Program-made: the position numbers and the translations under genes
Source: Anadara kagoshimensis
Lineage: Eukaryota > Mollusca > Bivalvia > Arcoida > Arcidae
Assembly: GCA_021292105.1 (NCBI GenBank)
Contig: CM037874.1
Location: 30,458,800 to 30,522,799, forward strand
Length of the DNA stretch: 64,000 bases
Direction of reading: 5' to 3'
The notes under the pieces: model-generated
Seen by the model: only the letters and a program-made list of their open reading frames with translations
What the model was told of the DNA's origin: nothing
Databases searched by the model: none
Shown here: positions 3,571 to 49,100 of the stretch, in pieces
How positions within the stretch are numbered: the stretch's first letter is position 1
Layout: each line of letters starts with the position of its first letter

Positions 3571-3735
3571 CAGTCAAACATGTCTACAAAGGCTACCCAA
3601 GGGAATCAGTAAAAGTTGCATTTATGGGCAGGTGACCTTTATATACAGGTTCAAATAATATGAATAAAGAACAATTGGGATAAAATTTTACCGGCTTTTA
3701 TAATATAGAGATGATCTTTAAGGCAGGTTCGACTG
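3571..3735. mobile_element. TA-flanked MITE, CAGTCAAAC family (unit 2)
   Basis: Same element and flanks as in unit 1, duplicated along with the 2.5-kb unit rather than independently inserted. Confidence 0.75.
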
Positions 3736-6081: not shown

Positions 6082-6246
6082 CAGTCAAACATGTCTACAA
6101 AGGCTACCCAAGGGAATCAGTAAAAGTTGCATTTATGGGCAGGTGACCTTTATATACAGGTTCAAATAATATGAATAAAGAACAATTGGGATACCATTTT
6201 ACCGGCTTTTATAATATAGAGATGATCTTTAAGGCAGGTTCGACTG
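6082..6246. mobile_element. TA-flanked MITE, CAGTCAAAC family (unit 3)
   Basis: Third tandem-unit copy with the same TIRs and TA flanks; small substitutions only. Confidence 0.75.
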
Positions 6247-8220: not shown

Positions 8221-8762
8221 ACATGTGTTAAATATCTCATGATCTTATGTCTTTAAAAAACAAAAAATATGAACATTGTTTCCAATACCACTGAAATTGC
8301 TTGAATTTGATATGTGTGTACCTGGACTTTTATATACAGGTTCAAATAATATGAATAAAGAACAATTGGGATAAAATTTTACAGGCTTTTATAATATAGA
8401 GATGATCTTTAAGGCAGGTTCGGCTGTAGTTGGTTCCTTTATCGCGAAAACAAATTCGATAATTGAAATTTTAAAATGAACGCAACTGAATTTTTAAAAG
8501 GTATTATCTGTATAGAAAACAGTCACAGGTGACATGAAGTGAGTAGGTAATCTCAGTAGTGTTCACTTTGCTGTTTACATTTTAGAGTTCAAACGAAAAA
8601 GAGGTTAATAAATCAAACTGAGGCTTTATAGTACACAAGGTAACATTAACTATGACAGGGCAAGTCTATAATAGGGTGAGTGCATGTCAATTATAATTAG
8701 TGAAAATATAATTAGCTATCAAATGATCAGTTATGGCACACGTTTGTCAAATAAAAACGTTT
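8221..8762. repeat. Partial fourth copy of the 2.5-kb unit
   Basis: Starts like the other units, then jumps (near 8323 and 8523) over segments present in full copies, and stops near GTCAAATAAAAACGT. It is more diverged than units 1-3, as expected for the edge of a tandem array. Confidence 0.85.
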
Positions 8763-21967: not shown

Positions 21968-22106
21968 CTATTCCTTTAGCGATAAATTGAACATGGAAAA
22001 TGCTGGATCCTCAGTAATCTCCTTTTGTACATCCAGGAAGTCAGGGAGTTTTAATGAATCACCTTCTAGAGTTGTGTACGTTTCTAACAGCACCAGTCCT
22101 TTACAA
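21968..22106 (-). CDS. TTD14-like exon 12: C-terminus and stop
   Basis: 139 nt. Acceptor TTTTATACAG. One base completes Ser, then [38 protein letters not shown] and TAG at 21968-21970. The LLETYTT strand and DP.FSM.NLS tail are the conserved C-terminus of the family. Confidence 0.95.
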
Positions 22107-25100
22107 CTGTATAAAATATGAAATAAAACATGAGCAAATGATTTACAAGATTAGTGTGTGAAATAGAATAAATGATTTACATGTCTATCAAAAACAAACA
22201 TTCCCGCCCATGTTCAAATCATGATCCAAAAACAAATTAAAACTTTGTAAACTGGCAAATTTAGTGAACGTCCACCAGGGGAAGTGAGGCCATATGAGAG
22301 TAAGCACCACTTGTTTAGCTAGCTACAACGTCCACCAGGGGAAGTGAGGCCGTATGAGAGTAAGCACCACTTGTTTAGCTAGCTACACCCACCATATGTA
22401 TAATCAAAATTAAATATAAAAGGAACATAATGAGTTTTGTGAAATATTCTAACTTTGGCAGTAATTCAAAGATTGAGTCAAGATATTTTGCAGCAATGAA
22501 AAATTATTGCAACAAACAAAGTCTGAAATTCAGCTGGGATTTAACTTTTCACACATCTCCACAGGGGGCATGCTAAATGTATACCAGACATACATAAACC
22601 TTTGTGTGTGTCTCACTTCAAAATGGCTACGATAGAACAGGCAAGTGGTAATTGTCAATGCTGACCTCATCAACTTTCTTTATCTTTGTCATATATTAAC
22701 AAGAGGCCCATGGGCCTGATACGCTCACCTGATAACTAATGGCTAGCAGATAGATTTAAAGACAACATAAATACTAAACCCCAATGACTTTTTTCTATAC
22801 ATCAAAATGATTTCGGAATTGTTTCGCATCTGTGACCTTGACCTTTGAACCCATGACCTTTTCCTATACATCAAAATGATCGTTGTATCAATACCTACAA
22901 CATTCTTACATACATGCTTATACAAAAAGTTTATAGTTTTCGAGATAATTAACCATTTCAGTATTGTTTCACATCTGTGACCTTGACCTTTGAACCCAAG
23001 ACCTTTTTCTATACATCAAAATGATCGTTGTATCGATAACTGCAACATTCTAATATACATGCCTATAAAAAAAGTTTATAGTTTTCGAGATAATTAAACA
23101 TTTCGGGATTGTTTCACATATGTGACCTTGACCTTTAAACCCATAACCTTTTTCTATACATCAAAATGATCGTTGTATCAATACCTACAACATTCTAATA
23201 TACATGACTATACAAAAAGTTTATAGTTTTCGAGATAGTTAACCATTTCGATATTGTTTCGCATATGTGACCTTGACCTTTGAACCCATGACCTTTTTCT
23301 ATACATCAAAATGATCGTTGTATCAATACCTACAACATTCTAATATACATGCCTATACAAAAAGTTTAAAGTTTTCGAGAACATTCACCATTTTGGTATT
23401 GTTTTGCATCTGTGACCTTGACCTTTGAACCAATGACCTTTTTCTATACATCAAAATGATGGTTGTATCAATACCTACAACATTCTAATATACAAGCCCA
23501 TACAAAAAGTTGATAGTTTTCGTGATAATTAACCATTTCGGTATTGTTTCACATCTGTGACCTTGACCTTTGAACCCATGACTTTTTTCTATACATCAAA
23601 ATGATCGTTGTACTAATACCTACAACATTCTAATATACATGCCTATACAAAAAGTTTATAGTTTTCGAGATAATTAGCCATTTCGGTAATGTTTCACATC
23701 TGTGACCTTGACCTTTGAACCCATGACCTTTTTCTATACATCAAAATGATTGTTGTATCAATGCCTACAACATTCTAATATACATGCCTATACAAAAAGT
23801 TTATAGTTTTTGAGATAATTAACCATTTCGGTATTGTTTCACATCTGTGACCTTGACCTTTGAACCCATGACCTTTCTCTATACATCAAAATGATCGTCG
23901 TATCAATACCTACAACATTCTTATATACATGCCTATACAAAAAGTTTATAGTTTTCGAGATAATTAACCATTTCAGTATTGTTTCACATCTGTGACCTTG
24001 ACCTTTGAACCCATGACCTTTTTCTATACATCAAAATGACCGTTGTTTCGATAACTGCAACATTCTAATATACATGCCTATAAAAAAAGTTTATAGTTTT
24101 CGAGATAATTAAACATTGCGGGATTGTTTCACATATGTGACCTTGACCTTTAACACCATAACCTTTTTCTATACATCAAAATGATCGTTGTATCAATACC
24201 TACAACATTCTAATATACATGCCTATACAAAAAGTTTATAGTTTTCGAGATAGTTAACCATTTCGGTATTGTTTCACATATGTGACCTTGACCTTTGAAC
24301 CCATGACCTTTTTCTATACATCAAAATGATCGTTGTATCAATACCTACAACATTCTAATATACATGCCTATACAAAAAGTTTATAGTTTTCGAGATAATT
24401 AACCATTTCGGTATTGTTTCGCATCTGTGACCTTGACCTTTGAACCCATGACCTTTTTCTATACATCAAAATGATTGTTGTATCAATACCTACAACATTC
24501 TAATATACATGCCTATACAAAATGTTTATAGTTTTGGAGATAATAATTATAATCAGAGGTAAAAAAAAATTAGGTCACAACCTTCACAATTGACCTTGAC
24601 CTCAATTTGAAGATACTAACAAGAAAATGTCAAAACTGAAAACCCCATGTCATTATCTGGTCAAAAAGTCAAGTTATAACAATTTGTAGCTATTTTACGA
24701 TTTTTTCAAAATTAAATGCAAAAACGCGTAACCTATTTTTTATCCGAATTTCACAAAATGAACAAACTATAGGCTTAAGACCCTAGAGAAGCCAAATATC
24801 ACATCAGATTTTTTCTCCAATCAGTACTTTCGGAGAAGAAGATTTTTTAAGATTTTTGCACCCCTAGGTCAACTTGACCTAGTTATGGTAGCCATGGCAA
24901 CGCCAAGAACAAATCTGAATTGCACCGGCCCATATATAATTCTGACAAAGTTTCATTAAAAACTGTCCAGTAGTTTCAGAGGAGAAGTCGAAAATAGGTG
25001 TTAACGACGCACACACGCACGCACACACGCACTCACGCACACACGCACATACACACGCTGCGCTATGCCATAAGCTCACATGACCTTTGGTCAGGTGAGC

Positions 25101-28100
25101 TAAAAATGGTATATATCACGCTACGATTTTATCATATCACTTGTTTGATAATAAATAACAGTATAGAAGTATACAGTTTACCTATCAGGGCATGGCTCCT
25201 CATAAGCATCTAAATGAAAATACTGATTATTCCATAGAAAACAAAATCTCTTTTTGAATATTGAATGATGTCTGTCATCCTTTTGTGCCATTAAAATCTG
25301 AAATAGAATTGTTTAATGATTTAATGAAAACATTTGTTATGGAAAAAATATTAATCTATGACCTAATTTAAGCCGCTATATTAAATGCAATATAAAAAGT
25401 TACTTTCTAGGAAATACATGTATCATAAGAATTGAAGATTTGGTCTCACTTCTTTTAAATACAAAGTCAACATGATCTATTTTTGGTGGAAATGATATGA
25501 GTCCACTCTGCTACTTTTGGTGGCTTTATTAAAGTTTATTTATATACCGGTAAATGATATTAAAAAAAACACCATTGTCTTTTGACCTTTCACCCAATTA
25601 TATCAAATTCAAATTACTAGTTTAAGATTAGTTGAAATAAAGTGTTATCTTTTCTCTTTTTGTCAAGTGAGCTTAAACCTAATGATGAACACAAGAAATA
25701 GCTATTCCTTCAGAAACAGACAAGCTGTCAGATGAACAGCATCAACCATATGCATATTTAGTACATCAAAATACCTTAAACCATAAAAATCAACAAGAGC
25801 TTTCAGTGAAAGCAAGATCCCCCATCGAGAGAAAATTGTAACATAAATTTATCAAAAAATTTCAAAAGGGACTCCATTTCTAGGAAATCATTGAACCAGG
25901 ACAATAAATTGAAATACACAACTACATCTCCCACTGATCATTCCTTTAAAAGTTCATCACAGGATTTGGAGAAATATTATGAACAAAAGTGTGACACAGA
26001 CGGACAGAATGCATTACTATATGCCCCTCAATGATTTCTATGTGTGGTATAAATGTTTCATATTCATATTCAAGTTTGATATGTGTTCTCCTGTATTTTG
26101 TACAGACAAAATTAACTGAACTTATTGTATAATCGAATAAGTACTGTAAACATATTTAATTTTGGGTGTATTTATTTTCTGAGGAATATAAAATTTAGAC
26201 ATTTTTGCATAGTTAAATTTTCTCCTTATTTACATATTCACTATAACACAGTAAGCATAATTTAATTTTCGCTCAAAAACAATTGACCGCAAAAATAAGC
26301 GAAAATTAGTACACTGCGAAAATAAATATGTTTACAGTAAAATGTACTTACTTTATAATCTCGTTGAGTTATTGCCATTCTTAGTTCTACACTTTGTTTA
26401 TTAATCTCAGGTCGTCTAATAGTGTGAGTATAGGTCCAGAAACCTAAAACAACATAAAAAACAAATTTATTATAAAATGATATTTTTCATGCACTTTCAT
26501 TGGGCTAAAAGTCGTCACGTGATCAAATTAAATAATGTAATGACCTGGCACGTGCAAGAAAAGTTGATTGACAGGAAATTGCTTATCTCCTTAGATTCAA
26601 TGTTGATTATGTAAAATCTGAAAAGCAGCTGCTGTTAATGGCGCTTCCAAAATAGGAGGAAGATTTGGAAGGACAACACATCGTAACAACAATGGCAGCA
26701 AACGGTGGAAGGTTTGCGTCATTGTAGACTGAAGAAAAAGACGCTTTGTTCAATTGTCAAAATATTACAATAAATTACATCTTTTTTAAAGTGAAGTGAT
26801 ATTATATATATCCATATGTTGAAAAGTTGTTATTGTTCCATTTCTTATGTTATAAAGCAATTTAATACCTGAAACCAAGTAGTTTTGCCTTTTTTTTTTT
26901 TTAACAATTTTATAATAAAACAATTTTAGCACCAATTTGAGTTCATTATGTATTTTATTGACCTCAATTGTATATTATATTGCTTCAACAATAAATAATT
27001 TTTTCTTATTGACATAGAATATTCATTTCTTTAACAATAAGCACATATATACTGTTTTGAAATAAATATGAAATATATCATTTTAATTTTTCATATATAC
27101 GTTTACCTCTATATACACTGTAATCTGCCTATGTCAAAAAAATCTGAACCCTGGGTAAACTGTATAAAACTGTTTTTTTATTTCTCTTCTAAGATTTAAA
27201 TACAAAGGATAATGATAGGTGGCAAAAAAAAAAAACAAAATTCAACATGTGATGAATCAAACATATTTAGAAGCTTGTATGTAACATATAAAATGTATTA
27301 ATTTCCTATAATTTTGATACAAGTACATGTGAAATATATACAGTTGATAATTACCATTCTGGCCTCTTCGTCGTATTCTGGCCTGCATTTTACGACTAGG
27401 AGTGACCAAATAATCATGTACCACAATAAACTGTTGATAAGCTGGAAAATTCTGAAAGTCAGAGTTGAAATAAATAAATATATATAAATATGTAACATTC
27501 AATAATACAGTTACAAAGTAAATCCCAATTCACTGATAAAAAAATACAGAGGAATAGAGCAATTGTGTCTTATGACTAAGTTAAGATTGTTTCACTTGCA
27601 CTGAGGCAGTCAGTTTTCAGATGGTGTGCCCCAAGGAAACCACTTATCTGTAGCAAGTGAATTGAAAAACATTCTTAAAGTTGAATATTCTAATTTTGAT
27701 GGCGAGAGGCACAAAAGTGCATACTTTATACCACATAGTCATCAAGGCCCCCTAACAATCAAAGAATATTCCATCATGTAGATCAGTAAAGTTCTGACAT
27801 TTAAACTATCCACAGAAAACATGTCTCCAGGGCTCTACATTAACTTTTTTCCTAACTTGTCCAAACGGACAAGTAGAAGAAAAAGTTGGTTGTCCTTCGG
27901 CAAAACAAACTTGTCCGAAATTTTACAGCTAAATTCAGAATTACATTTACTTAAAGACTTAAAGCTAGAACCTGTATGTTTATTAATTCAAACCTAAAGT
28001 AATTTAGTGTCCATTGTTAATGATAAACTGTGTGATAAACCTGTTCACAGTTGTAAATATCAACTCGCTTGACCAACTTTCCTGGAACAAGCTAACTTGT

Positions 28101-31100
28101 TTTTGTTCGTACCTTGTTGTAGATATATTTTTTCCTCCTCAAATTTTTTTTTATTTTTAAGAGGACCACACGGAAACCCAAATTTGGACAGATCCATTGC
28201 CTCTCCTGTTGTCATGTGTAAACAATCTATGTAAATCGAACACTTCAATGTTGTTAAAGCAAACATATCGATGTTAAGCGCAAAGGAGAGTTAGATTATG
28301 ACCTTGTTTCAAAGTATTTGACATACAAGTTCCGGTCAATAATATCGTTGTTTACACTGTTAAATATTCATTGTAGAAACGTGATCAATGATACTGAAGG
28401 GTGGCGGAAAATATTACTTGTCCCGTCGGACAACATCACTGTCCAGTTGGGTTGTCCGACGACACTTTTATTGTCCCGGGCAATCGGACTAATGTTAATG
28501 TCGAGCCCTGGTCTCCCTTGTTTGTAAAGCTATTTGAAGCTCAACTTTAGCTTTAAAAGACTTTTATATATACTTTATATTTTGAAATGAGTAAATTTAG
28601 TGAATTAGAATCCCCCACCAGCAGTTGTTTTTGTTTTTTTTTTTTGTAATTTGCACATATGTTCAAAGGGCAATATCTCCAAGGAAAATGAGCAAACCAA
28701 CTTGGTTTAACAATATGCATATCTCCTATCAATGTTGATGCTTTGCACCAAGTTTCATGAAAGAGAGAATTTGCACAGACAAGCACCTCCTGTTTAGCTA
28801 GCTACACCTGCCATGTGTGTAATCAAAATTGAGTGAAAGGAAAATGGAACAATGGGAAGTCAAATATATCCAGGGAAATCTGGACACCGAAACATCAAAC
28901 TTACCAACAATACTGTGATGCCGGCCATAAAAACTTTTTGAGGGCTAATTTAACGATATAACAAGATTTTTCTTTGAAACATTAACCTCAAGGTTGTAAA
29001 AGGACATAAATCCTGTCTGTTTTCTGATCACAAGATTTTGGATTAAAGTAGATTCATCTGTATGAATTCAACTTACTTTAAGATCTGCAAGATTTTTAAT
29101 AAGGAACTTTCTCTTTTTGCTATTAGTACTTAATCTATCACCGGCGTCTATACCAAGACGATTACAAACTGCCTGTAATAATAGTCAAAATAAATATGTT
29201 AAATATGAACAATTATCCTTTATATTATCCATAACCCCAGCAATATAAATGTCTCTCTTAACCATTGATTCACCACCTCCTAATGTTGGTGATGTTGCAA
29301 TTTTTTAAGTCTGGATAAATTACATCCAGATAATGTAACATCAACCACATAATGAAACTCTAACAGATGTTTGGAATAAAGGCCACAAGAACTCTCACTT
29401 CTAACAGAAGTCTTCTATGTGACAGGTGGGTCAACCTGACTCTCAAGATATTAAGACTTATATTTCTCTATATAAACTAATTATCCAAACATCAAAACTT
29501 CAAAGTTAGATTTTGGGCTTAATCTGGCTGACCAGAATACGAAATGATATCCTATCAGTTTTATGTGACACACATGAGTTGTTACACTGCCAACAATTTT
29601 TCCATGTAACCACACATGGACTGTCATACTGCAAACAATTTTAACAAGTAAATCCAGTGAATTAGGATCCCCACCAGTAGATTATTTTTTGTTATTTGCA
29701 CTTATGTTTAAAGGGTAATAACTCCAAGAATAATAAGAAAAAATAACTCTGGTTAACGATATGTGCATCTCCTATCAATGTTGATACTTTACACAAAGTT
29801 TCATGAAATACTGGTACATGTAGTGTTTCATGTTTTTGGAGAATTAGCGCAGACAAAAATTTCTGACGGACAGGTGGAAACTTGAATTTAATATCCCACT
29901 TTTTCTTTGAAAGGTGGGGTATAATAACAAAGAGCAACACATTTATGTAAGAGGGAAGGTTCACCTGGGTAAAAGTGATTTCCTGACTTGGGATAAATTC
30001 CTAGATCATATCAATTCAACTACTTCATTAAGATGATGCTTGGAAAGCTTTATCATCTATTACACATGGGTTTAATGTGATAATGGTAAATCTATTTTCA
30101 CTTAAAAGTTTGTCTCTTTATTAAATAAAATTCACCATTTCTTCAAAACACATTCTAATATATATTTACCGAGATCATTTTCATAACTTTTTCTTCAAAT
30201 CCTGTAGCATTGTCTATAACATCATAATATGGATGACCAACCCATGCCTGGAACAAAAATTAAAGCACTGATACATATATAATATATATATATGTCTCAT
30301 TCTTGTCACATTCAACTTAGCTTGAAAGAAATCAGGGGTTTAAAATTACATTTTGTAATGTAAGTCCAGGACCTATTCCCTTTATTTTTTTGGCAGATCC
30401 CATATAAATTTTTGTGAAGTTTTGCTCTAAAACTGTTGGTAAAAATAACATTAGAATTTTAAATAGGCACAACTCTTTAGAAATTTGCACATAGTTACTT
30501 CCTCTTCTGGCAAACGCAACGGACAATGCCCATACTTGCCTACCCTTTCCTGAGACTAGGAGTAAGTTTGGGTAAACTTTGATCGCAAGTTTTACAAAAT
30601 CTATCATAAGCCAAGGATTCCTATATTTGACTTGACAAAACATGGATATGCTGTATAATACTTGGGTTTGAATTCTTGATCCCATTGTTTCTTCTTCATT
30701 TTAATTTGCAGCTAAAGATCCTGATTGGAAGCTAAAGATCGTCACTTTCATGCCCATACCATTAAGAAGTCATTTTTAAACAAATGTACTACACTGGTTC
30801 CCTGTCTTGCACACTTGGACAGTATTTACACATTGCTCTTTGCTTAAATTAGAGGAAGTTGCCATTTCACCACTATACATGGACTAGAAAATGGTTTCAG
30901 CTCCAATTTCTGAAAATTACTTGATTTTCTTTTTTCGTCGTAAGTTTTAACTGGCAATCGTATAAGGGTAGGCAAGTATGAATGCCTTACCATTTGATGT
31001 CCTGTTTCTAGAAATGGGTGCATAAAAATCAGTATAGACTTAATTTTTTATCAGGATATACCATGAATATTGCACTAGAAAATACCAAAAATATTGCTTT

Positions 31101-34100
31101 GTTGCGGGTGTTTAATAAAGACAGATTCAACTGTAGGGGTTTAGATTAACAGGAGCCCAGTAGCATATGGTCTCCAGAAATTTGTCTGAGCCCCAAAGTT
31201 TTAAAGATTTTTTTTATGTATTGCAATTTGCAATTTCTCTTCATAAGGGAGCTGGGCCCCTAACTCAAAATAGTTAAGATTCATCCCTGCAATTGTTAAA
31301 AGGTCAACTGTGTACAAAGTCCATATTACATGGGTCTCATGAGTGGTCTTTATAATCATGCTTTAATGTACTAATCAAATCTTAATTAGCATATTATCTG
31401 ATTTGCTAGTTAAGACTTAATCAATGACTGACTTTGATAAGCTTTGCACTTCTGGACCCTAGTAGTTGTTTAACTACATAAAACTAATAAAAATTTCCTC
31501 ATTTTTTCATTTTATATATTTTTTAACATTTAGGTACTTCACCTGTGCTGTAAATCTTAATTTGCATATTATCTGGTTTGCTAGTTAAGACTTAATCAAT
31601 GATTCACCTTAATCAGCTTTGCACAACTGGACCCTAGTAGATATTTAACTTCACAACTAATAAAAATTTCCTCATTCTTCATTTTCATATTTTTTTAAAA
31701 AAAACATTTAGGTACTACACCTGTGCCGTAATTGAGTCTAGATTTCTGGCACCTGATAAATCTTCATGCCTTGTTTCATGGCCCTCTAATGTGTAAAACG
31801 GTTCCGCTCCGTTGGCTGCTGATACCATGTGTATGATCTGATTATAACGATTGTCCCGTATATCCACTTCATTCCACTGATTATCTGTCTTCATTTTCAC
31901 CCACTGGTCTCTCGGTAAATCTAGATTAATAATGACAGAAAAAGGTTCTGATAATTAATTAATGAACCAAAATGATTCAAGTAGGAAATACTGGTAACTA
32001 GACCAAGAATTAATCATAGTTCAAAGGTTTAATTAAAATCAAACTGTATTACATGTACTTGTAATTATATGTGTAACATGAAGGAAAAATATGCAGAAGC
32101 CAAATAAAGAACTTCACTAGAACCTTATTAATACTAGCAGGACCACCGTGATAGCTCAGTTGGTAAAGTGCTCACTCAGTAAGTGGTATGGTTGTGGGTT
32201 CGAACCCTTACTGGGTCTGACCCAAAACTTGAAAGTGGGTAGTGACTGTTATTTTGGCAAGCACTCAGCATTATGAAATGAAAGTCATGTTTCTTGCAGA
32301 TGAGAACTTAAAATAAAAGAGGTCACAGAAGACTTGGAACGATAATAAACCATGCTGTATAATGCCATCAGTGCATGCCACATTTTCATGATTCCAGTAT
32401 GTATATGTCAAACCAAACAGGGAAATTTCTATAATTCAAAGTGCTGATATATCGTGTTTTATGCACTTTGTATTGATATGTATATTGTAATTCTAAATAT
32501 CATAATTATAACCACATTGCTGGACATTTATTCCAATACATGTCCACCAAGTAAGTTTTATAATTAATAATACCACTATGTGTTTGTCTTTTCTTGTTTC
32601 TTGTCCGATTTTATTGTTTATATCATGGACTATTGTTGTATTGTACAATGTATTTGGAACTGTTGGCTATTGCCAAGTACATGTATAAGTTTTTTAGTTA
32701 CAAATTACTTCCATTTACTGTAAAAGTATTTTTCTCAGGGTGAAAATTTCGCAATTCCTAAAATCTGACATTTTATGTAGGTGTAATTTTCACGTAACCA
32801 ATATAAGTGGGTGAATATTCTATATATTAAGATATGTATGTTATACATTTTGGCATAGGTTAAATTTTTGCAGTAATTTCTTTAGTGCAAAATAAGTAAA
32901 AATTTTACCCATGTGAAAATTTCCCCCTTTACAGTACTTACTTGTAGAATGCTGATGATGATAACAGAATAAGAAGAGACATGTTTAAAAAGAGCAATAT
33001 AGTACATTTATAACACCACTAATTTTTACCCATTTAACACACATATATCACTTCTACTATTTCTGAAACAACAACAGTAGGAGTATTTTATTGTAAAGTC
33101 AGTAGAAATATTAAAATTGTTAATGACCGTCATTAAATCTAGATATAATTAACTCACAAGCTGTTGCATCCATTATTCCTCGGTCACATATAACTAGACA
33201 ATTCTGTTGGCAGGTTCTGGCTAGTTCAAAGTATGTATTCTCTATCTGCATCATGGTTTTAATTAGATTTTCTTGAAATTTATAAGCTGTGAATAAAAAG
33301 AAACAAGTGTAATAAAACTTCACAATGATCAAATGATCTTCAAATGTATAAGCTGTGTAATAAAACTTCACAAAGATCAAATGATCTTGAAATGTATAAG
33401 CTGTGTAATAAAACTTCACAAAGATCAAATGATCTTCAAATGTATAAGCTGTGTAATAAAACTTCACAATGATCAAATGATCTTCAAATGTATAAGCTGT
33501 GTAATAAAACTTCACAAAGATCAAATGATCTTGAAATGTATAAGCTGTGTAATAAAACTTCACAAAGATCAAATGATCTTCAAATGTATAAGCTGTGTAA
33601 TAAAACTTCACAAAGATCAAATGATCTTCAAATGTATAAGCTGTGTAATAAAACTTCGCAAAGATCAAATGATCTTCAAATGTATAAGCTGTGTAATAAA
33701 ACTTCACAATGATCAAATGATCTTCAAATGTATAAGCTGTGTAATAAAACTTCACAAAGATCAAATGATCCTAAATGTATAAGCTGTGTAATAAAACTTC
33801 ACAATGATCAAATGATCTTCAAATGTATAAGCTGTGTAAAAAACTTCACAAAGATCAAATGATCTTCAAATGTATAAGCTGTGTAATAAAACTTCACAAT
33901 GATCAAATGATCTTCAAATGTATAAGCTGTGTAATAAAACTTCACAAAGATCAAATGATCTTCAAATGTATAAGCTGTGTAATAAAACTTCACAAAGATC
34001 AAATGATCTTCAAATGTATAAGCTGTGTAATAAAACTTCACAATGATCAAATGATCTTCAAATGTATAAGCTGTGTAATAAAACTTCACAAAGATCAAAT

Positions 34101-37100
34101 GATCCTAAATGTATAAGCTGTGTAATAAAACTTCACAAAGATCAAATGATCTTCAAATGTATACGCTGTGTAATAAAACTTCACAAAGATCAAATGATCT
34201 TCAAATGTATAAGCTGTGTAATAAAACTTCACAATGATCAAATGATCTTCAAATGTATAAGCAGTGTAATAAAACTTTACAAAGATCAAATGATCTTCAA
34301 ATGTATAAGCTGTGTAATAAAACTTCACAAAGATCAAATGATCTTCAAATGTATAAGCTGTGTAATAAAACTTCACAAAGATCAAGCAGCATCATCTAAT
34401 GAAGGTTTGTTTTTAACTGAAAATTAAAGTTTAAGACATAAAACTATGGCATAAACATAAACTTTAGAACTGAAAATCATGCTGATGAAATATAATAACA
34501 CCTGAGTCCATACAACTTATACGCTTTAAGGACTTTAAGTACATACTCACTTTACCAATTCAGGAAAGTAAAACGGTTGGTTGGTACCAATGATGTTTTA
34601 CACATAAATTAAATTATATTACTTATATTGAGGCAGTCCATTATGAAACAGTAGAGAAATCTAGAAAGTGTGGAGAAAACCAATGTTCTCCATTATGCAA
34701 ACTGACAATTTTTTCTTGCATTCACAATAGGACTGAACATGTGGATTTCAAACCCAAAGGATAATAGTTTAGACCAATGAACCAATAAGAAGGATAGAAA
34801 ATGACACATCCAACATTCTTTTTTTGCATTATTACTGAATAATTTGTATCAACGCAATATGTTTCTTAAAAATTATTAGACTACATGATTACATCATGAC
34901 ATGAGAACCTCATAAAAAACCCTTGCTTTATATAAATTGTACAGTTAAACCTTGTTATAATATTTCAGTTAACTCATCTTGCTCATTGCTACACTATTTT
35001 GAAATTCCAAAATATAAATTTCTCTTATGATTTTCTTTATGAGTCATCCTCAATTTATCACAAAACCCCCTTTATAATACATAACAAAATAAGACAGAAC
35101 TGAAAAAATTTAAGTTTTTTTTTGTTTTGTTTTTTGTTGTTGTTGAAAATGGTCTTATCTGAAAAATCCTGAAATAAGCACTGTTGATTACAGAACATAT
35201 AACTGAAAAAAGTGATACTAATTAAGTTACAAGGGGGTAACTAGACTTTAATATCATATGCAGCAAGTTATAAATGATATATGACATGTCATCAGATCAC
35301 AACTTCAATCTTGATTAGAGCACTAGGTTGTTTTTCAGTGAGGGTTATCCCGAAAACATTACACTATAATCAATTAATTAAACTAATAATATTATAATTC
35401 TAAAACAAATCAATAAGCATGTTTTAATTCTTCCAAAATGAAAATAACAAATAGGGGTAAATAATGATATAAATGTGAATTTATCAAAAAAACAAACCAG
35501 TAAACGTATCATCATATCAAAATAACATGTCATATAAAACACAAATAATTGTATCATTGTTTTGATATTAATCTGAGTTATTTTGACTATACATACCAAA
35601 TATGATCAGAGTTCATTTGTATATCAACTAACAGATCGAAAAATGTTTGAACAAAATAGAAACAAGAGAATTAATGCTAGGGCATGAGATTTCAAGAGCA
35701 TGGGAATATCATTTAAATCGCAATATTTACAATTGCAGTATGTTTGCTTCAATAAAGTATTTGACATTGATTTACTTTGCAACTTCATTGAGACATTGCT
35801 CCACACACTGACGCGATGATGTCAGATGTCAAATGCTCTTATTGACTGACAGGAGACGACCAATATTAATGAGAAGGTGCACCAACATTGCATTTCAAAT
35901 TTGTTTTTAAATTAACATGGAAATAAAATTAATTTCTTTAAATATTGTAAATATAAGAAATAAGGAAAGCCTTTTATGCAAAAATTTAAGACAGCCCATT
36001 ATACTTTGCAAGTTCATAAGGACAATGGAAAAATACCTTATTTCTTAAATAAATGAACTGACAAATACTTTTTAACTATTTATACAGATTTCTGAATGTA
36101 GTTAGCAATATAACTTTAAAAGGAACATTAATTGTAGTGAGAAACATTATATAAATATTACATTTCTGACAGGGTGCCAGTACATATTGTCACCTCGAGG
36201 AAGCATTGTTTGCCGAGGCAATAGCCGAGGCTGAAAATGCTTTTCGAGAGGTGACAATATATGTACTGGCACCCTGTCAGAAATGTAATATTCATTTTAT
36301 TACACCGAATGTTTGTTTTATTTTACCAATACATGATGTGCATCCTCATCCTTAGTAATGTCTATACCAATTTTAATTCAATTTATCGACCGGGAATGCC
36401 TCAAATGCAGTCATTTGAGCCAAGAAATTTAAGAAACATATCCAAGGCCCGCTGAATGATCCATTTAGTTGATGCAGAGTCTTTAGACTCTTAACAAATT
36501 GCCAAGACAGTCATTGTCAACCTCGGCAAACATCATCCGTTGTTGTTACAGATGAATGTAAACAATATCAATAACAATGAGACACTTGCTGTAGACACAA
36601 CTGAAAACATGTTTTGTTCAAAGCGCCGACGTGATCCAGTGAAGGTAGGCGACTCGAACAAAAGTACTGTCACATAGTCACGCGCAGCGCTATGTGACAT
36701 TATAAATTTTATGTGACAGTACAAATTGTTACATAGCTCTTATCCAATGAAATTGCTAGATTTTTACATAAGGTGTAATAAAACAAAATGATATCTCCAT
36801 GTCATATTATTGAGCACACATGACTTAGATCGATTTTATATCCCAGTCAAGAATATTTCAGTAGCATCTAGACACCACCAAGCTATAAATGATGTGGCAA
36901 ATTTTTTTTACCTTTGCAGTGCACCCAGGGCAATGTGCAGACAGAGTAGTGACATGACAAGGCACATCAGTTTTTAAGGTTTGATTGCATGTCAATAAAA
37001 CTTTAGGGTGGGTCTAAAACAATTAGGTTAGTTAGTAAAGGCAGAACACAATTTTATTCTTGACATTAATGATACAAAGACTTGATTTAGAGAGACTTGT

Positions 37101-40100
37101 TTTAAATCACAGAGATTTTGTCATATTAAGAGATATTTATGTAACAGGTGGGAGGAAATAAAAGAAACAATAGATCCTCGTGATATGAATATCCTCTGAA
37201 AAGTGTATTTTCCATAGCTAATACAAGTAAATTGCATGACAATGGTCATAAATATATATGGTTGCTAAGGAAATTAATTAGATATTTTATATGGTTGTTA
37301 AGGAATTTGATGTTGACCTTTCTTCTAAGAGTTTATAATATATGATGATTACTTCAAGAAACTGATCATAAATCAGACATGGTTGCTATGACCATTACTG
37401 GTTTACAAGTACCATTAACCTTCGATCTTTATTTTTCTAAAAGATAATCTGATCTCATTTCATTTTCATGTTTAAAGTTGATATATGTAAAATTGTTTTT
37501 TTTAAACAATATTGATATTTTTCATTTACAGTCAAACCTGCCTATAATGGTCACCAAAGGGAACCAATGAAAGTGGCCTTTATGGGCAGGTGAACCTTAT
37601 ATACAGGTTCAAATAATATGAATAAAGAACAATTGGGATATAATTCTACTGGCCTTTATAAGCAGGTAGCCCTTATATAGAGGTGGCCTTTAAGGCAGGT
37701 TGGACTGTAGTTATACATCACCATTGTATGGGATGCTTCATTGTCCTGCCCAGTAACAGAAGTAGAACTAGAAGTAAATCTATACAAAAACAGCTAAAAG
37801 GATCTTTCTTACTGGTCACCACCAAGGTAGAATTGTTTTTAACAACAATATGATATTTGACATTGATTGTACAGTGTATCAGTGGGTGATATTTAACACC
37901 TGGAGACTACTTTATTTTGACCGCTGGTCACCTCTGCAAGGTATTGTAAAAATCACCTGGATTCATAAAAACATATTAATTAAAAGTATGGCAGCAATTT
38001 TGCTACATTTCTTAAAAACTACCTTCTGCCTTTTAAATTGGAAAATTTGAAGTACTGAAATATAGAAAATTGCATAATGACATGCTTTGCAAGTTATTGT
38101 AAAAATCACCTGGATTCATAAAACATATTAATTAAAAGTATGGCAGCAATTTTGCTACATTTTTTAAAAACTTTCTGCCTATTAAATTGGGAAAAATTGA
38201 AGTACTGAGATATAGAAAATTGCATTATGACATGCTCACAATAGCTTAAGATCCTCATTGCAAAGATGTTATATTGTCACAATATCTTACATTTTGTGGG
38301 CAGAGACAACTACAATTAATTTGCTAGTACATCACTGTTGTTTTGAGAATATTAGTGGTGATGGGAAAATTTTGTCATTTTCCCCCCAGGGGAAGCAACC
38401 TTTATTTGGTAGTAATTTTAGGCAAACAAAATCACTGAGTATGGATACTTCATAAGGAAAACCCCAAAACTTGTGTTTTAAAACTGACTTAAAACATTGT
38501 ATTTAGTTTCTTATAAATGCACAAAATTTAATACATGTTTTGCTACAACTCATATACGTGATTTAAAAATATTTTAAATTCTGTCATACCATACGGTACG
38601 AGTCATTATACTTACGTTCATCATTTTTCAAATTTGTAAATTTAATTCCACCACTGAAATAAAAAAGAAAAAATATAAATTATTTCATAAGATCATTTAA
38701 TTTTTATCACAAATAAGATTCACATTGGGATATGACATTAGCTCACCACACTAGGTCAGTACTTTGTACAGCAACCATGCTTAGCAGAGACCTATGAGAA
38801 TCGTTGCCTCCCATCAAATCTTTATGGTCAATTAAATCCTTGCTCTGTAATCTTGCGATACAAACTTTATTCATATGTGAGAACAAACATTATACAACCA
38901 CCCTGGCATCACAGCAAGTTTGGTTAGTTTTAGGAGCAGGCAGGCAATCATGCATCATCACCATCATCATGCTTCATCATCACCTTACAGAGCATACAAG
39001 ACTGAGCTTAATTACTCAGATTGACACTGTGGTTAAACCATATATTGCAATATCTTTGCTTCAATAAAGTATTTGACATCAACTATACTTTGCAACTTTC
39101 TAGAGACATTGCTCTAGGCGCTGACGTGATAATGTCAGATGTCCGATGCTCTTGTTGACTGGCAGGAGCTGACCCATTTTATGAAAAGGTGCACAACAGC
39201 ACATTTCAAAATTGTTTTCAAATTAACATGGAAAATGTGAGACTGCAATAAAATAATTTTTTATAAATATTGTAAACATAAGAAATAAGGTAATATTCCA
39301 ATGTCTTTATGAACTTACAAAGTATAATGGGCTGTCTCAAATTCAGTTTATAAAGACATTGGAAAATGACTTTATTTCTTAAATCAAACTACCTCCAAAA
39401 CACTTAACATATTAAATATTAAAGTAGACTTCACTTCAGGAAAATCAATTTGAGTATCCCTGTTCTGATAATATGTTAGTGTATTTGGCTGAATGAAATC
39501 TGTAAATTGTCAGAGATTAAACCAAGCAAGTAATCAGGAAAATGTCAAGTTGACTTAGGTTTTTCCAAATCTTATTCTTTATAGATTTCATTGTTTCTGT
39601 GAACACTAAAAACACAAGACTTCTTTGTCATTAAGCAGGGGGAAATTTATAAGATAAAAAAAATAAATTAGGATTCTGATCCAGTACCTATTTTATGTGA
39701 TTTGCACTTATATTCTATAACATGTGCATCCCCTATCTGTTGTTACTTGCAAAATAGTGTGTTTTTTTATACTTTGATAAACAGAGGATTATAACACCAA
39801 GGAAAATTAGTAAACCAAATCAGGTTCATAATATCCCCTTCTCCTTTCGCCGTTGATAATGTCCATTTTTTTAAACTTCTAGTGAATAGTTTTGGAGATT
39901 GACTCTTGACAAGAATTTCCCATTGAAAACTTCAAAGGGCTATAGATTCAAGGAAATTTAGCAAACAGCTTCGAGTTAGTAATGCATATATAATCTTCTA
40001 TCAATGTTGATGCTTTAGGTTTTGTAAAATTATGATGCATACTGGTAGTATGAAATTGAAGATTATGAAATTGTGATTCATAGTTTGGAGTATTACTCCA

Positions 40101-43100
40101 GACAAGAAGTGGGACAGACAGGCAGATGGATGGAAAGAAATATAACTCTAAATTCAATATAAAAACTTTGGCATACAGTTAAAAATTAGTGGTGTCGGTT
40201 GGATTACCAGAAACAGTCAAATATATTTAATTACTACTTGTGGTGTAAGATAGAAAAATCTCAACCAGAATTCTAATGTATTACCTCCAGAATGAGGGTT
40301 CATTTTTTTCTCAAACTAGGAGCTTTCTCCGAGCGGGATTTGAATTTAGGTGGTGAGAAGCACTATGATTAGTGTGCTTCAGACAACTCGACCACTAAGG
40401 CCCCTACATAAAAGTAAGAAAATCAACAAAGACAACTTACATAGAAGTGAATAAATCAGCAAGTAGCCTATCTGACAATGGAGGTTCCAGACAAGAATAT
40501 CTAGCAATGCTATTTCAATAGATTATCTTGCGTGATGTGCAAAAAAACTTTAAACTTTTCTTTTTGTCTCAGTTTTTTGGTGAAAATTCTTTCAAAAAAA
40601 ACTTAAAATATAAACAGCTGATTTAAGTGTACACTCCTATTAGTTACCAATATTTTACCATTCAGTAACTATTGTATTATTGATTCTAAAATGTCGATAC
40701 AGAGTTAACAAACTTGTAAATCTATTATATAACACACTTCCCTGTACGAATCACCAAAACACAAACATAGATACAGATTATACACAGATTACATAACTAT
40801 TTACAGGCTCTCGTTTCTCCGGTGATAATTCACTTTTACCCTTATATATCACGTAAGACAATCAGATTTAGAGAGCTGCAAATAGCTGCAATAATGCTGA
40901 TGTAGCTTTTAACACTAACTCAGATCACACTCCTTAAAATTAATCAAGGGTCTCAAATCATCAATACAAATGTAGACATGCTAGCTGCATGTATATGCGT
41001 TTTGAATAACAAAGTTAGCTTTTTATGTCATTACGTGCATTTTAAAAATAAAATCCAATTTATCAAAACTTTGCTCCATGTCAATGCTACACTGTATGAA
41101 CTTATTAGCCGTATTGATTAAGGTTTTCGAAAAAAAAAATTACAAAAGAAGAAGACAATGTTACATAAATGATTGATATTTTCATTTTCAAAAACTCTTA
41201 AACTTGAAGTACAATAGTTATCAATAGTGAAAAGCTGACAGTTAAAGCAATTTACTGTTGGCAATCTCTCTCTCTCCCTATCTCTCATATTCTCCATATT
41301 TTTCGATATTTGTTTAATTTTATATGGAGGGCTCTCTCATTTATTTCTGAAAATCCATTGTCTCTTGCTGCTATGAGTTCGAATCCTGCTCAGACCACAT
41401 GTGGGAAAGTGAATTTTCCTTGCAGTTGGCCTTTACTATTTCAGCAGGTGTCATTATAATGTGAGTGGGGGAGTGGTACGCTTGTCTGCAGGGTACTGAC
41501 TAGGTGAGATAGCACCTTAAAGTCACCCCGAATGCACCTTGGTACAAGGCAGACCATAAAACACACCCGCACATCACATGCATACACAACCTTATTCATA
41601 GATTAATCCATAGAGATTAATAAATTAGTTCTCGTCGCTAATAGCTGATAAAATTCCTGATGTGACGTTAAACAACATTCAACAACAACATCTCTCATTT
41701 ATCAATTTGTTGTTCTAAAAGCAAAATGGATAGCTAAGGAATTAGTGATGAATTGGCAGTTCATTTTGGCCCCTAGTTAACTGCTTATCTGCAGCTTCAG
41801 AGTGTCACTATCAATCTCTTGGCAGATTTTTTGGCCACTAGCTTTTAACACATCGACCAGACCACTCGACAGCTTAACCTAAATTCAGTTAAATCTGTTA
41901 ATTCAGTGTTTAAATTCCCATAGGCCCGTACTGTATTTATCAAACACTTCAATCAAGTGCTTTTATTTTCTTTGAAAGTGAACAAATGTAGGTTAAAATT
42001 AATGTTCTGGGCTGAGAAACATCATACAGGACAAGCTCTGTTGGTAAACAAGGTGATCCTGTGACATTACTAATGAGGCCATTCCAATAAAATTACATGT
42101 TTGACCTCACTTAATTTTTTTTAAAGGAAGGAGGGTATGAGGCAAACAAACAAATTTTAATGAAAAAACAAAATCATATTTTCTGTTCGTATGCACATTG
42201 CATTTTCATTAAATAAATAAACAAGAGGCCCATGGGCCTGATACGCTCACCTGACAACTAATGGCTAGCTGATAGATTTAAAGAAAACATAAATACTAAA
42301 CCCCAATGACTTTTTTCTTTAAATCATGATAACTGTTGTATCAATACCTACAACATTCTAATATAAAAGCCTATACAAAAAGTTAATAGTTTTCAAGATA
42401 GTTAACCATTTCAGTATTGTTTCACATCTGTGACCTTGACCTTTGAACTCATGACCTTTTTCTATACATCAATATGATCGTTGTATCAATACCTACAACA
42501 TTCTAATATACATGCCTATACAAAAAGTTTATAGTTTTCAAGATAATTAACCATTTCGGTATTGTTTCGCATATGTGACCTTGACCTTTAAACCCATAAC
42601 CTTTTTCTATACATCAAAATGATTGTTGTATCAATATCTACAACATTCTAATATACATGCATATACAAAAAGTTTATAGTTTTCGAGATAATTAACCATT
42701 ACGGTATTGTTTCGCATCTGTGACCTTGACCTTTGAACCCATGACCTTTTTCTATACATCAAAATGATCGTTGTATCAATACTTACAACATTCTAATATA
42801 CATGCCTATACAAAAAGTTTATAGTTTTTGAGATAATTAACCATTTGGGTATTGTTTTGCATCTGTGACCTTGACCTTTGAACCCATGACCTTTTTCTAT
42901 ACATCAAAATGATCATTGTATCAATACCTACAACATTCTAATATACATGCCTATACAAAATGTTAATAGTTTTCGAGATAATTAACCATTTCTGTATTGT
43001 TTCGCATCTGTGACCTTGACCTTTGAACCCATGACCTTTTTCTATACATCAAAATGATCGTTGTATCAATACCTACAACATTCTAATATACATGCCTATA

Positions 43101-46100
43101 CAAAATGTTTATAGTTTTCGAGATAATTAACCATTTCGGTATTGTTTCGCATCTGTGACCTTGACCTTTGAACCCATGACCTTTTTCTATACATCAAAAT
43201 GATCGTTGTATCAATACCTACAACATTCTAATATACATGCCTATACAAAAAGTTTATAGTTTTCAAGATAATTAACCATTTCGGTATTGTTTCACATCTG
43301 TGACCTTGACCTTTGAACCCATGACCTTTTTCTATACATCAAAATGATCGTTGTATCAATACCTACAACATTCTAATATACATGCCTATACAAAAAGTTT
43401 ATAGTTTTCGAGATAATAATTATAATCAGAGGTAAAAAAAATTAGGTCACGACCTTCACAATTGACCTTGACCTCAATTTGAAGATACTAACAAGAAGAT
43501 GTCAAAACTGAAAACCCCATGTCATTATCTGGTCAAATAGTCAAGTTATAACAATTTGAAGCTATTTTACGATTTTTTCAAAATTAAACGCAAAAACGCG
43601 TAACCTATTTTTTATCCGAATTTCACAAAATGAACAAACTATAGGCTTAAGACCCTAGAGAAGCCAAATATCACATCAGATTTTTTCTCCAATCAGTACT
43701 TTCGGAGAAGAAGATTTTTTAAGATTTTTGCACCCCTAGGTCACCTTGACCTAGTTATGGTAGCCATGGCAACGCCACGAACAAATCTGAATTGCACCGG
43801 CCCATATATACTTCTGACAAAGTTTCATTAAAAACTGTCCAGTAGTTTCAGAGGAGAAGTCGAAAATAGGTGTTAACGACGCACACACTCACACACGCAC
43901 ACACGCACACACGCACATACACACGCTGCGCTATGCCATAAGCTCACATGACCTTCGGTCAGGTGAGCTAAAAACATTGTGTTTTAAATGTTTAATAGAA
44001 ATTAAACTCATTGCACGAGTGTGATAAATTGGAATTTTCATCTGAATTTTATGAAGTACATCATTTGATCTTTTCATGTCAATACCTACTTCAAACTTCC
44101 AAACAAACCAGAGTGTACCCGATATTTCAAAGTCGGAAAACGAAATGGACATGAAAAATGACCAAATTTTACGATCAAATATGTATTTTCGCATTTGATG
44201 GAATTTGTTTGTTTTTCAAAAAAAAATAATACAAGGGATGCATGCAATGATGTCAAACATAGAATTTTATAGGAATGGCCTGACAGAGATTGCAATCTGT
44301 GCATCATAAAAATTGAACAATAAAATCTTTCCCAATGTAGCTTTTTTGAAAATAAAAAAAACAACAGCAAGGTGAATTTAACTTATTCTATATAAAATCT
44401 GTGTGAATATTTATATACCAGTAACTGGTTTTAGTCCTACTTTGAAGTGACCTTATAAAAAAGATAATATTGGTTATAGTCCTACTTTGAAGAGACCTTG
44501 TAAAAAAAATAATATTACCCTTCGAATGTTTACATATATTGAAATGGCAGTTATATCAAGCAATATAGATCTTTATAAAGTTGTCTTGTTCAGGGGTCAG
44601 TTGTTCGAAGCCTGATTAGTTTTTGATTACCAGTAGTCAAAATTTCAATTTTATCTGATTTCAGATATATTGTGAACTTAATGTTTAAATGTTGAAAATG
44701 AAGAAAAATCCTTCAAACTATAGCAAATTCTAATAAAACTATTGATTCAATGATATTTTGATTTTATTTATGTTTTAAATTTCTGCTAATTATTGATTAG
44801 GCTAATCAAGCTTCGAACAACTGGGTCCAGATTCGAACAACTGGGTCCAGATAACTGCTTCAGAATATTGCTTGCATTATATTGAACATCATAATAACAT
44901 TGTTATAATGATATATGGTATCCTAGTTTGTCAAGGAATCATAAAAACTACATCTTATTTTTATCCAGTTTTTGTCACAGAAAACCAGATGAGAATCAAG
45001 CCATAGTGATAAAAGTATATATGTATGTATTAAAAATTACAATTTTTCCTTTGCGATACCATATGACATATTTATCTTAAAAGCAACACAATACTATATT
45101 TTGTTATACATCTAACTTATTTTGATGCATTTAGATTGATTAAAAGAACAAATCTGTCATACTGTTTCCTTGGTAACATAAATACTTAAACTGCTTCTTT
45201 GAGTCGTTGATATTTGAAAAACAAGACTCGTGAAGTCCCTGGGTGCTCATCTGACAATAATTTGCATTTAGCTCAAATTTAAAGTAGTATAACCTACTGA
45301 AAATTTAGAGATTTTTTCAATATTTTAAACTTATGACTTACTTATTGATTCAACATGATTTATCAGAAAACTTAGTCTAGTCAAGAAAAAAAATCTGGGA
45401 AAGGTTGATAAAAGTTGGCCAAAATATTTGGCTTCTAAAGAGTTTGCAATACATGTATATGGATTAGTAACCTACTTTTTGAACAAGAATGTTCAATAAC
45501 TTTCAGAAGCCCACCTATCTTTTGACAAGAAGATTACAAGTATTCTGAGCAATTTTGAAGAAGATTGGGCTAGACATATCAAATAGTTTTTCTATGATTT
45601 AATCTAGTGAACTTTTGAACTATATATATTAATTTTGCCTTAACTTCTGTCAAGAGGGATCACTCTGGGTAAGTGTGATGAAGACTTGGCAAAAAAATTG
45701 TGATCATTATTGTGTTCACAAGGTTATTTCTATGATTTGACCATAGATAATTATTGGCAAATCATGACCTGAATCTAGATTTTGTCATAAGGAACAAGAT
45801 TTAGGCAACTTTGATTAAGATTATGATGTCATAAATAGTGCATACTAAAATTACAATTATCATACTAGCTGACTTTATATCCATGACAGTTAAACCTGTC
45901 TATAAAGGCCACACAAGGAAACCAGTAAAAGTGGCCTTATATACAGGTTCAAATAATATGAATAAAGAACATAGGTTACAATTCTGCTGGCCTTTGTAAG
46001 CAGGAGGCCCTTATATAGAGGTGGCCTTTAATGCAGGTTGGACTGTATTTCACTAATCACATATTAAACCAATTTTAATTTAACAGCATTATATGGCTAT

Positions 46101-49100
46101 TTCAGAATACTATCTCTCATCAGTAGTGCTTGGACCAAGCTTGGATTAAAATTGTGAAACCAAACTTCTTCAAGATGTTGAAAAAAATACAAATCTACTT
46201 TACCAAATTTAGCTAAGGAAATAATTTGCATGAGGGAGTATACCTTAGTTTTTGAGGAATTTCAAATTTTAACTAGCAGCAAATTTAGACTATAGTATAT
46301 TTCTGACAATAATACACAATTATTGCCTACTGAGTTTGTGATATATCACCAGCATAGATACTAGCTCAGTAGTGTAAATTACATATTATACCAATTTTAA
46401 TTTTACAGCACAGAATTAATAATCATCAGAAATTTCAAGATTTTGGGGCATCATAGGCACCCAGGGATCTCTTGTCCTTCTTTAGGAATGGGGCTGGGGC
46501 CCTTGGAATTGGGAAAATACATGGTGTTTCACCTAGTTTGGGAAAAATGATTAAAAATAAAAAAAATATATAAATTAATAAAAAAAAAAGATTCAAATTC
46601 GTTGTAGCAAAGCCTTTAGCTGGCAATGTTTAATCTGTTGTTAAAAAATATTTTGATCTTGCCACATTTCCTGATGTTTTTTATCTATCTTTTCCTATAG
46701 TATTTTGTGTTGTGAGACATCATTGTTATCTACTTTCACTTTTGTTTTAATAATAACAGGTTCCAATACCACAGTTGTGTAATAAGAACACATTACTCAT
46801 TGCTAAGTTAACTGAATCAGAAACCTGACAAAAGAACACATGCTTCTGGAATAAAGAGACTATTCTTATTCTTTCCCCTTCAATGGAATATGCCAAAATT
46901 TTACTCTGTCATCAATTTACTTCAAGTTTTTTCTATATTTATACAGTGATTATTTACAGTAATTTTTGGAAATATTCTGTTCAAAATTGGAAAAACTACC
47001 CATTTAGCCATTGGGAATGGCCCCAAAAATGTCCAAGTGAGATTCCTGACACCTCACCATACCTACCATACTTATTTGCTTAAATTTACCAATTCTAAAG
47101 TGGCAATATTTTGTAAAAATACACTGTCCTGATAATTTCTCTGAAAACCTTACATTGCAATCAAAGTTACATATGAAATGCAAAACCTGTATAAAATTAT
47201 ATCAGTTGAAATTCAACATTGATTATATATGGATTTTTCCCCTTATATTTTTATATGAGAGAAATAAAAAAAAACAGAAAACAAGAGGCCCATGGGCCTG
47301 ATACGCTCACCTGATAACTAATGGCTAGCTGATAGATTTAAAGAAAACATAAATACTAAACCCCAATGACTTTTTTCTCTACATCATGATAACCATTGTA
47401 TCAGTACCTACAACATTCTAATATACAGTCGAAAGGCCAGCTTCCAATATGGCTGATTTTTAATCACTTTAGTCACGTGATTTTCAGTTCAAATTTTGGT
47501 ACGCAATCGGAAATGGTAGTAGGTCTCGAAAATTTAAGTATACTTTTAAATGGGATCGTTATTACTTAAAATCATCAAATATTTTGAACAATAAATATTT
47601 TTTCCTTCAATTTATGTAAAAAAGAACCAATTATATACAGAAAATTACGAGTAATACGTCTTGAAAGTGGAGGTTGTGTTACAGCTGTCGGCCGACGATC
47701 TCGCTTCAGACACATTTTTTGAAAATATTAGGGCGAGTGATGGGTTCTAATAATTATTTTCTAAAAATTTATTCATTTCTGAACACATTCATATGAAAGA
47801 CATGTCCGAAATCGGTGTGGGATGCGATTCTGTCAGTTGAGAAAACGGCAGGTGTGGCTCCTTTTGCGGGGTTTGGTTCACATCTGTCGGCCGACATTCG
47901 TGCTTCAGACACAAATTATTAAATATTAGGACAAGTGATGGGTTCTAATAATTCAATTCTGAAAATATATTCATTTCTGAACATATTCATATGAAAGACA
48001 TGTCCGAAATCGATGCGGGATGCGATTCTGTCAGTTAAGAAATCAGCAGGTGTTGCTTCTGTTTTGTTTTGTTTTTCGTATGATGATTATCTCCCTTGTT
48101 TACAATGTCTCTCGCATGTATGCGAATAAAAATAAAGTGATTTTACTGTCTTATTGATTGATATTTGTTTTAATGTAGGGAAATGTAAAAAAAAATAAAT
48201 AAAAAAATAAAAATAAAAAAATAAATAAAATCTAAAAAAATGGCTTCATTTAACATTTTAATCTTAATCAAATAAAATTATTTTCCATGGGAAATATTTC
48301 TTCAAATTTGATACACAAGAGAAAGTTATATAATTTTCTTTTCAGTGGTGTCATGTGCTGATTTTAAATTTTTATTAAAATAATGAATTTAAAATCAGCA
48401 TATGACAACTAGTTGCTATGTGCTGATTTTAAATAAAAATTCAACAGCAGCACCATGACAGTGAACAGGAAGAAATACTGTTTCCACACCCCAAGTTAAT
48501 AACTAGAAATTAAAATCTCTTTCTATAAGATGGTCAGGTCAGTTTTACCGGGTGTAACAGTTAATTCTTTAGTATCTGTGGTTCATTTTTTCACAGATCA
48601 AGTGCTGCTGGTAGACTTTTTGCAGCTAAAGTACTATTGCACAGATGCAATATTAATCTAATTCTGACTGTCTCCAAAATGACATGGATCAAGTTCATGT
48701 ATCTACCTTCAGTCCAGAGGATGCTTCATGTCTTTTGGGTAAGGAGTAGAGTAAAAGTCAAGATTCTTTCACTATCAAACATATTTAGAGATGGGGAGAA
48801 AACTGTAGAGCCCAAAGAAAACCAACGACATTCCACAACAAACTGACTAACTTTCTCACACAAAAACTGTCCTGAATGAGATTCAAACCTATACAGTAAG
48901 AGGCCATGCCCCTACCAATATTTCAAATGTTATGTTGGACAGGTGCCAGTGTAATGCACAAAAATAATTATGCATTTATTATGTCAATTAGCATTTATTT
49001 TTCCTTAAAGTAATGATAATGTTAAAATGCAAGCAAAACATCTTTATTGACATTGTACTGTGTGTTGACCATGTAATGTTATCTGCAATAAAAAAAACAA

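Follow-up and report, generated by a model that had tools for sequence, protein, structure and literature searches.

A minisatellite beside exon 5 of a TTD14-type gene in the bivalve Anadara kagoshimensis and its probable origin from the adjoining intron-exon boundary

We analyzed a 64,000-nt stretch of the Anadara kagoshimensis genome (assembly GCA_021292105.1, contig CM037874.1, positions 30,458,800 to 30,522,799 of the forward strand), referred to below as the window. Its minus strand carries a TTD14-type NTPase gene, and intron 4 of this gene holds a minisatellite of 48-bp units that directly adjoins exon 5. Judged from the DNA, the array is a "mirage" minisatellite, a structure known from amphioxus and new in a bivalve. 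A preliminary description of the locus had proposed that the intron 4/exon 5 boundary was captured and amplified, and that the resulting decoy acceptors could alter the length of the protein. The proposed amplification of the boundary is well supported as the origin of the array by a homology that exceeds shuffled sequences, other tiles of the window and eight other acceptors, by a sharp distal edge, and by the close match of that edge plus the true exon to the repeat unit. Conservation of the exon marks it as the source. For an effect on protein length we found nothing in support; pyrimidine tracts, acceptor scores, folding and homologues speak against it.

The TTD14-type gene

Eleven exons of the gene (2 to 12) were placed by following reading frames and GT-AG borders and by aligning them with protein P0001 of the arcid bivalve Tegillarca granosa. 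Exon 1 was not located in the window. The features of the gene used below are as follows.

21968..60179, minus strand: TTD14-type gene, exons 2 to 12
60179, 56027, 38653, 33286, 31920, 30247, minus strand: first bases of exons 2 to 7
29172, 27451, 26443, 25297, 22106, minus strand: first bases of exons 8 to 12
21968-21970, minus strand: stop codon
38616..38653, minus strand: exon 4, 38 nt, 3' border GAAC/GTAAGT
33158..33286, minus strand: exon 5, 129 nt, 42-residue match to T. granosa P0001 at 95%
31721..31920, minus strand: exon 6, donor CAG/GTGTAG at 31720, inside a second duplication

The joined exons are identical to T. granosa P0001 at 344 of 363 aligned residues and match Pfam AAA_28 (PF13521) with an E value of 3.6e-14 (53.8 bits, cut-off 27). 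An AAA_28 domain with a P-loop, together with homology over nearly the full length, places the product among the TTD14/NadR-like NTPases. Drosophila TTD14 binds GTP and is required for trafficking of the TRPL channel, and its mutation in the fly is larval lethal (PMC4624897). Exon 5 begins after the acceptor TTGTTTCTTTTTATTCACAG/C at 33286 (CACAG/C) and ends at a GTGAGT donor. Because the last base of exon 4 is C, the codon across the exon 4/5 junction (C/CT) is CCT and encodes proline, not the alanine given in the preliminary description. T. granosa has the same residue, and its gene model reads NDEPYRFQ uninterrupted across the junction.

The 48-bp array in intron 4

The minisatellite adjoins exon 5 inside intron 4 (33287-34385) and consists of 22 units and a distal 28-nt partial copy, in agreement with the approximately 22-fold amplification proposed earlier. 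Its parts are listed here.

33307..34385, minus strand: minisatellite, each unit a copy of 28 nt from the intron 4 end joined to 20 nt from the exon 5 start
33287..33306, minus strand: last 20 nt of intron 4, an AG (33287-33288) plus an 18-nt stretch (33289-33306)
33737..33783, minus strand: unit 10 (47 bp), the point from which outward the decoys reach a stop codon

Tandem Repeats Finder (TRF) reports the array at 33307-34385 with a period of 48, 22.5 copies and 96% matches. When units were delimited by cutting at the acceptor-like point, 18 measured 48 bp, three measured 47 bp and the exon-proximal one measured 66 nt (48 + 18). The additional 18 nt, TTGTTTCTTTTTATTCAC, lie just upstream of the true AG and are present only at the true site. 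They appear to be related to the 19 nt that precede them, agreeing at 14 of 18 aligned bases, with a single gap and with TTCT in place of GAAG. The units are otherwise 96% alike, the 18-nt stretch being carried by the proximal edge unit only, and the pattern of variants among them recurs best at an offset of 7 (9/14, small numbers). The CAAG of exon 5 is also present in units 2 and 5, which were rightly singled out in the preliminary description as nearest to the exon. The AG is kept at 21 of the 22 unit boundaries and is replaced by TG at 34261; the earlier estimate was about 22 decoy acceptors.

Most units (33307-34385) also contain a near-palindrome, AAGATCATTTGATCTT, which was spotted by eye and which the exon 5 source lacks. 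It could aid expansion or folding of the array.

Homology of the unit to the exon 5 boundary

A doubled unit was compared with the 60 nt around the exon 5 acceptor by local scoring (match +1, mismatch -1, gap open -3). The alignment scored 22, and the maximum reached in 20,000 dinucleotide shuffles was 19, upholding the homology to the exon 5 junction that had been noted earlier. Among 25,114 60-nt tiles taken from both strands of the window minus the array, the exon 5 boundary ranked first; the runner-up place, with a score of 19, includes the exon 12 acceptor, aligned with a 6-nt gap. Eight other acceptors of the gene (a comparison that did not include exons 3 and 11) scored 6, 8, 8, 8, 9, 9, 9 and 13 against the unit.

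The exon part alone scored 13 with gaps, a value equalled by 37 of 20,000 shuffles. Without gaps it gave 19 matches over the first 26 nt; in 20,000 shuffles this number was never reached when the register was fixed and was reached six times when any register was allowed. Extension to 30 nt raised the any-register count to 102 of 20,000, suggesting that the homology fades around exon bases 20-26. The intron-only part is short and acceptor-like, with a local score of 9. A dispersed repeat as the source of the unit was rejected, no clear second copy being present in the window (next score 19; none at E 1e-10). An Rfam search of the window at gathering scores gave no match.

The distal edge of the array at 34385 is sharp: the 28 nt that reach to the outermost AG are all identical to the unit (28/28), and farther out similarity falls. 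This edge suggests a natural unit of 28 nt of intron followed by 20 nt of exon. When the 28-nt edge is joined to the first 20 nt of the true exon, 44 of 48 positions are identical to the unit, and edge and identity together suggest a tandem duplication in place. Among the best 120 of 859 homologues the exon 5 start is conserved, with Q in 119, F in 110 and N in 110 at the aligned positions, which makes the exon the source and the array the copy.

Frame, strength and folding of the decoy acceptors

The first decoy boundary lies at 33352, 66 nt from the true boundary at 33286, and the insertions that the proximal decoys would produce have lengths of 22 + 16n residues, both as previously described. 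Nine proximal decoys, not about ten as had been suggested, are open and in frame.

33352, 33400, 33448, 33496, 33544, minus strand: exon-like first bases of proximal decoys 1 to 5, open and in frame
33592, 33640, 33688, 33736, minus strand: exon-like first bases of proximal decoys 6 to 9, open and in frame

Depending on which of these nine sites was used, exon 5 would gain between 22 and 150 residues with its frame intact. From the tenth decoy (33783) and from all 12 boundaries beyond it a stop codon is met. The frame does end at unit 10, as the preliminary description had it, through a net loss of 1 bp in a 47-bp unit and not through a 2-bp deletion.

Splice-site scoring of the units, proposed earlier as a check, was performed with an acceptor matrix built from ten other acceptors of the TTD14-type gene, and the 248 AGs of intron 4 were ranked. 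The score was -3.04 in 18 of the 21 decoys, and 20 of the 21 ranked between 91 and 125; the best decoy scored 1.55 (rank 28). The true acceptor at 33286 scored 6.23 and ranked fifth. Of 16 tract positions, 14 are pyrimidines at the true site, compared to nine in the decoys (ten in one). The GAAG of the unit also places an AG 13 nt upstream of the decoy AG. Two extra AGs at 33770 and 34104 (minus strand), which derive from two 47-bp TTTAGG units, scored 4.76 (ranks 10 and 11 of 248) and so outscore all 21 decoys in the boundary register.

For folding, three unit stretches were submitted, two of them identical in sequence. Pairs of units fold with z scores of -3.81 and -3.05, while the true-site stretch has a z score of +0.46. 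In 91-nt windows around five decoys the mean pairing of the tract was 0.54, compared to 0.29 at the true site.

Of 859 homologues, the best 120 show no inserted residue in 25 aligned columns at the junction; one of these lacks most of the junction region, and the start of oyster P0014 diverges there. The insertion was also searched for among database proteins, with a query close to but not exactly in the window's unit order. None was found, which says little because no protein from this very species is among the homologue matches. Selection on the frame or the AGs was considered and rejected for want of evidence. Six substitutions in 864 compared sites (one polymorphic site excluded) predict 0.3 AG losses per 22 units under drift, and one was observed. 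The three indels all lie among the 13 distal units, an arrangement expected by chance with a probability of 0.19. The frame is preserved because 48 = 3 x 16. Taken together, use of the decoys is unlikely on present evidence.

A second duplicated boundary and the local duplication background

When the 21 known boundaries of the gene were scored against their surroundings within 1,500 nt, the exon 5 acceptor reached 24 and the exon 6 donor 25, compared to 9-16 for the other 19. The exon 6 donor lies in a tandem duplication with two copies.

31554..31731, minus strand: copy 1, 11 nt of exon 6 plus intron 6 sequence (edge at 31554 set by eye)
31377..31553, minus strand: copy 2 (edge near 31377 set by eye)

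The copies are identical at 148 of 176 aligned columns (31560-31731 against 31385-31553), and by this alignment the exon 6 donor is the second tandemly duplicated boundary in the gene. The decoy donor in copy 2, CAG/GTGAAG at 31542, lies 178 nt from the true donor. The frame read onward from 31720 meets TAG immediately.

Short tandem duplications occupy 16 intervals and 6.4% of the window. These comprise 12 TRF arrays with a period of at least 20 and four diverged intervals with approximate edges; the count omits 145-bp satellites, a 2.5-kb triplication, two low-complexity TRF rows near 46.5 kb, and weaker tiles near 10.0, 37.6, 46.1, 49.2 and 57.5 kb. Local tandem duplications span two of the 21 boundaries, compared to 1.37 expected from circular shifts, and 8,680 of 20,000 shifts reach at least two. 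Targeting of boundaries was rejected on this count, and the likeliest explanation is that the arrays are a passive by-product of local duplication.

Proposed origin and alternative explanations

We propose that a segment made of 28 nt from the intron 4 end and 20 nt from the exon 5 start was tandemly duplicated in place, and that the copies then multiplied to 22 units through slippage or unequal exchange. The array would mostly have arisen passively, through the short tandem duplications that are frequent in the region, and the spliceosome would most likely ignore the copies and take the acceptor at 33286. In each unit the tract is broken by GAAG, which introduces the additional upstream AG, and the copies would fold on one another; the 14/16-pyrimidine tract of the true site is supplied by the 18-nt stretch. 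This stretch may have been added at the true site, or an old tract may have been lost from the unit. The homology, the edges, the frame, the difference between the tracts and the folding energies are direct results; we infer the course of events and that the decoys are silent, and place the probability that the array is a boundary-derived mirage minisatellite, a passive by-product with decoys that are most likely skipped, at about 75%. Several results weigh against this reading. The true exon 9 acceptor, left out of the matrix, scored -3.94, below the decoys; with a ten-site matrix and this low value, weak scores are no proof of silence. The exon 11 acceptor has a tract with 9/16 pyrimidines, as in the decoys, and four AGs of intron 4 outside the array score above the true site. 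Pairing at the AG itself is similar in five decoys (0.59-0.61) and at the true site (0.55). In human ABCA7, the report as we interpret it (PMC5954066) puts the retention of one donor-bearing unit of a variable number tandem repeat (VNTR) at ~2% of transcripts.

The decoys could instead form a functional ladder of acceptors, in which they are used meaningfully and the length of the array tunes insertions (22 + 16n residues, n from 0 to 8) and truncated forms of TTD14. Retention of 21 of 22 AGs and the open frame of the nine proximal decoys fit such a ladder. An interferon-induced transcript reportedly contains a minisatellite that carries several splice donors (Turri et al. 1995). VNTRs with used splice-site copies do exist, as the ABCA7 report indicates (PMC5954066). 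We nevertheless regard a ladder as unlikely, given the weak tracts, the additional upstream AG, the folding and the homologues without an insertion at the junction; AG retention is as expected under neutral drift, the frame follows from the unit length, and the distal position of all three indels has a chance probability of 0.19. Still less probable is a version in which alleles of different copy number would give graded insertions and truncated TTD14, with the 18-nt stretch compensating and keeping the ladder in check. Compensation could also be considered by itself: if the decoys formerly competed with the true site, the pyrimidine-rich 18-nt stretch (33289-33306) would have been favored because it restored a dominant acceptor. 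That it resembles a modified copy of the preceding 19 nt (GAAG to TTCT) and occurs at the true site only is consistent with such compensation, but the long tract could equally be the ancestral form, lost from the unit before amplification, and we consider compensation doubtful.

Two further explanations concern the resemblance itself. An unrelated AT-rich minisatellite might share the acceptor consensus by accident, as could be argued from the short, acceptor-like intron-only part and from the acceptor that is also included in the runner-up place. This was rejected on the shuffles, the tiles and the eight other acceptors: the exon part matches in register, the exon 5 boundary ranks above every other tile, and the array adjoins exon 5 in equal orientation, so that chance or convergence appears very improbable. 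Alternatively, the start of the exon or its acceptor might have been gene-converted towards the array, since the two are neighbors and CAAG is common to units 2 and 5 and the exon. The residues at the exon start are conserved in molluscs, annelids and insects, which indicates that they predate the array and makes the reverse direction hardly credible.

Comparison with known systems

Amphioxus "mirages" are minisatellite-like duplications of intron-exon boundaries found in Adh3 and globin genes (PMC3087553); they are of acceptor and donor types, are unstable in length and reportedly leave regular splicing undisturbed (PMC3087553, PMC3902484). Two assemblies carry either 2 or 7 copies of a 60-bp unit and 3 or 6 of a 108-bp unit in PGBD5, and TnC is another case (PMC3902484). 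The array described here shares the features given for Adh3, BflGb6, BflGb9, TnC and PGBD5: its unit crosses the intron-exon boundary, it lies beside the authentic boundary of its own gene, and many units keep the AG or GT. It has 22 units in one assembly, compared to 3 and 6 in two BflGb6 haplotypes and 2-7 in PGBD5 assemblies. The bivalve gene also combines an acceptor type (exon 5) with a donor type (exon 6), a difference from the amphioxus mirages of these reports.

Other systems are alike in part. The ABCA7 intron 18 VNTR has a 25-bp unit that carries the neighboring exon 18 splice site, with 23.7 units in the reference; there the site is a donor and the effect of length on splicing was measured (PMC5954066), whereas the array here carries an acceptor. 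Potato RdRp has a tandem duplication crossing an acceptor boundary that led to a new intron (PMC4974935); ours has many copies and gave no sign of a new intron. Genes in human segmental duplications have internal tandem repeats with minisatellite units at exon-intron boundaries and, unlike the present array, new introns backed by transcripts (PMC2812944). In the open-licence literature, where absence is weak evidence, we found no report of an intron minisatellite with a splice site in a bivalve and no use of the phrase "mirage minisatellite."

The locus shows that the arrays named from amphioxus arise in a bivalve too, and that acceptor and donor cases are possible within one gene. Such boundary arrays would be natural material for intron gain through tandem duplication. 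The 21 natural decoys, set apart from the true site chiefly by their tracts, would offer a ready-made test of how the spliceosome chooses its site. An acceptor ladder, if true, would affect a gene with a fly counterpart that is required for larval survival.

Other repeats in the window

Diverged short tandem duplications without a TRF call were seen at 37925-38250, 55650-55800 and 62600-62975, all with approximate edges. One 145-bp repeat forms four arrays (22810-24544, 42306-43417, 51320-52665 and 60897-61745) with common flanks that are ~87-95% identical, and these look as though a single mobile element containing an internal satellite had been copied. At 717-8324 a unit of ~2.5 kb is repeated three times in tandem at ~98% identity. 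On the minus strand at 11153-11821, a 222-aa open reading frame with a zf-RVT domain (E 2.4e-07) appears to be the remnant of a reverse transcriptase.

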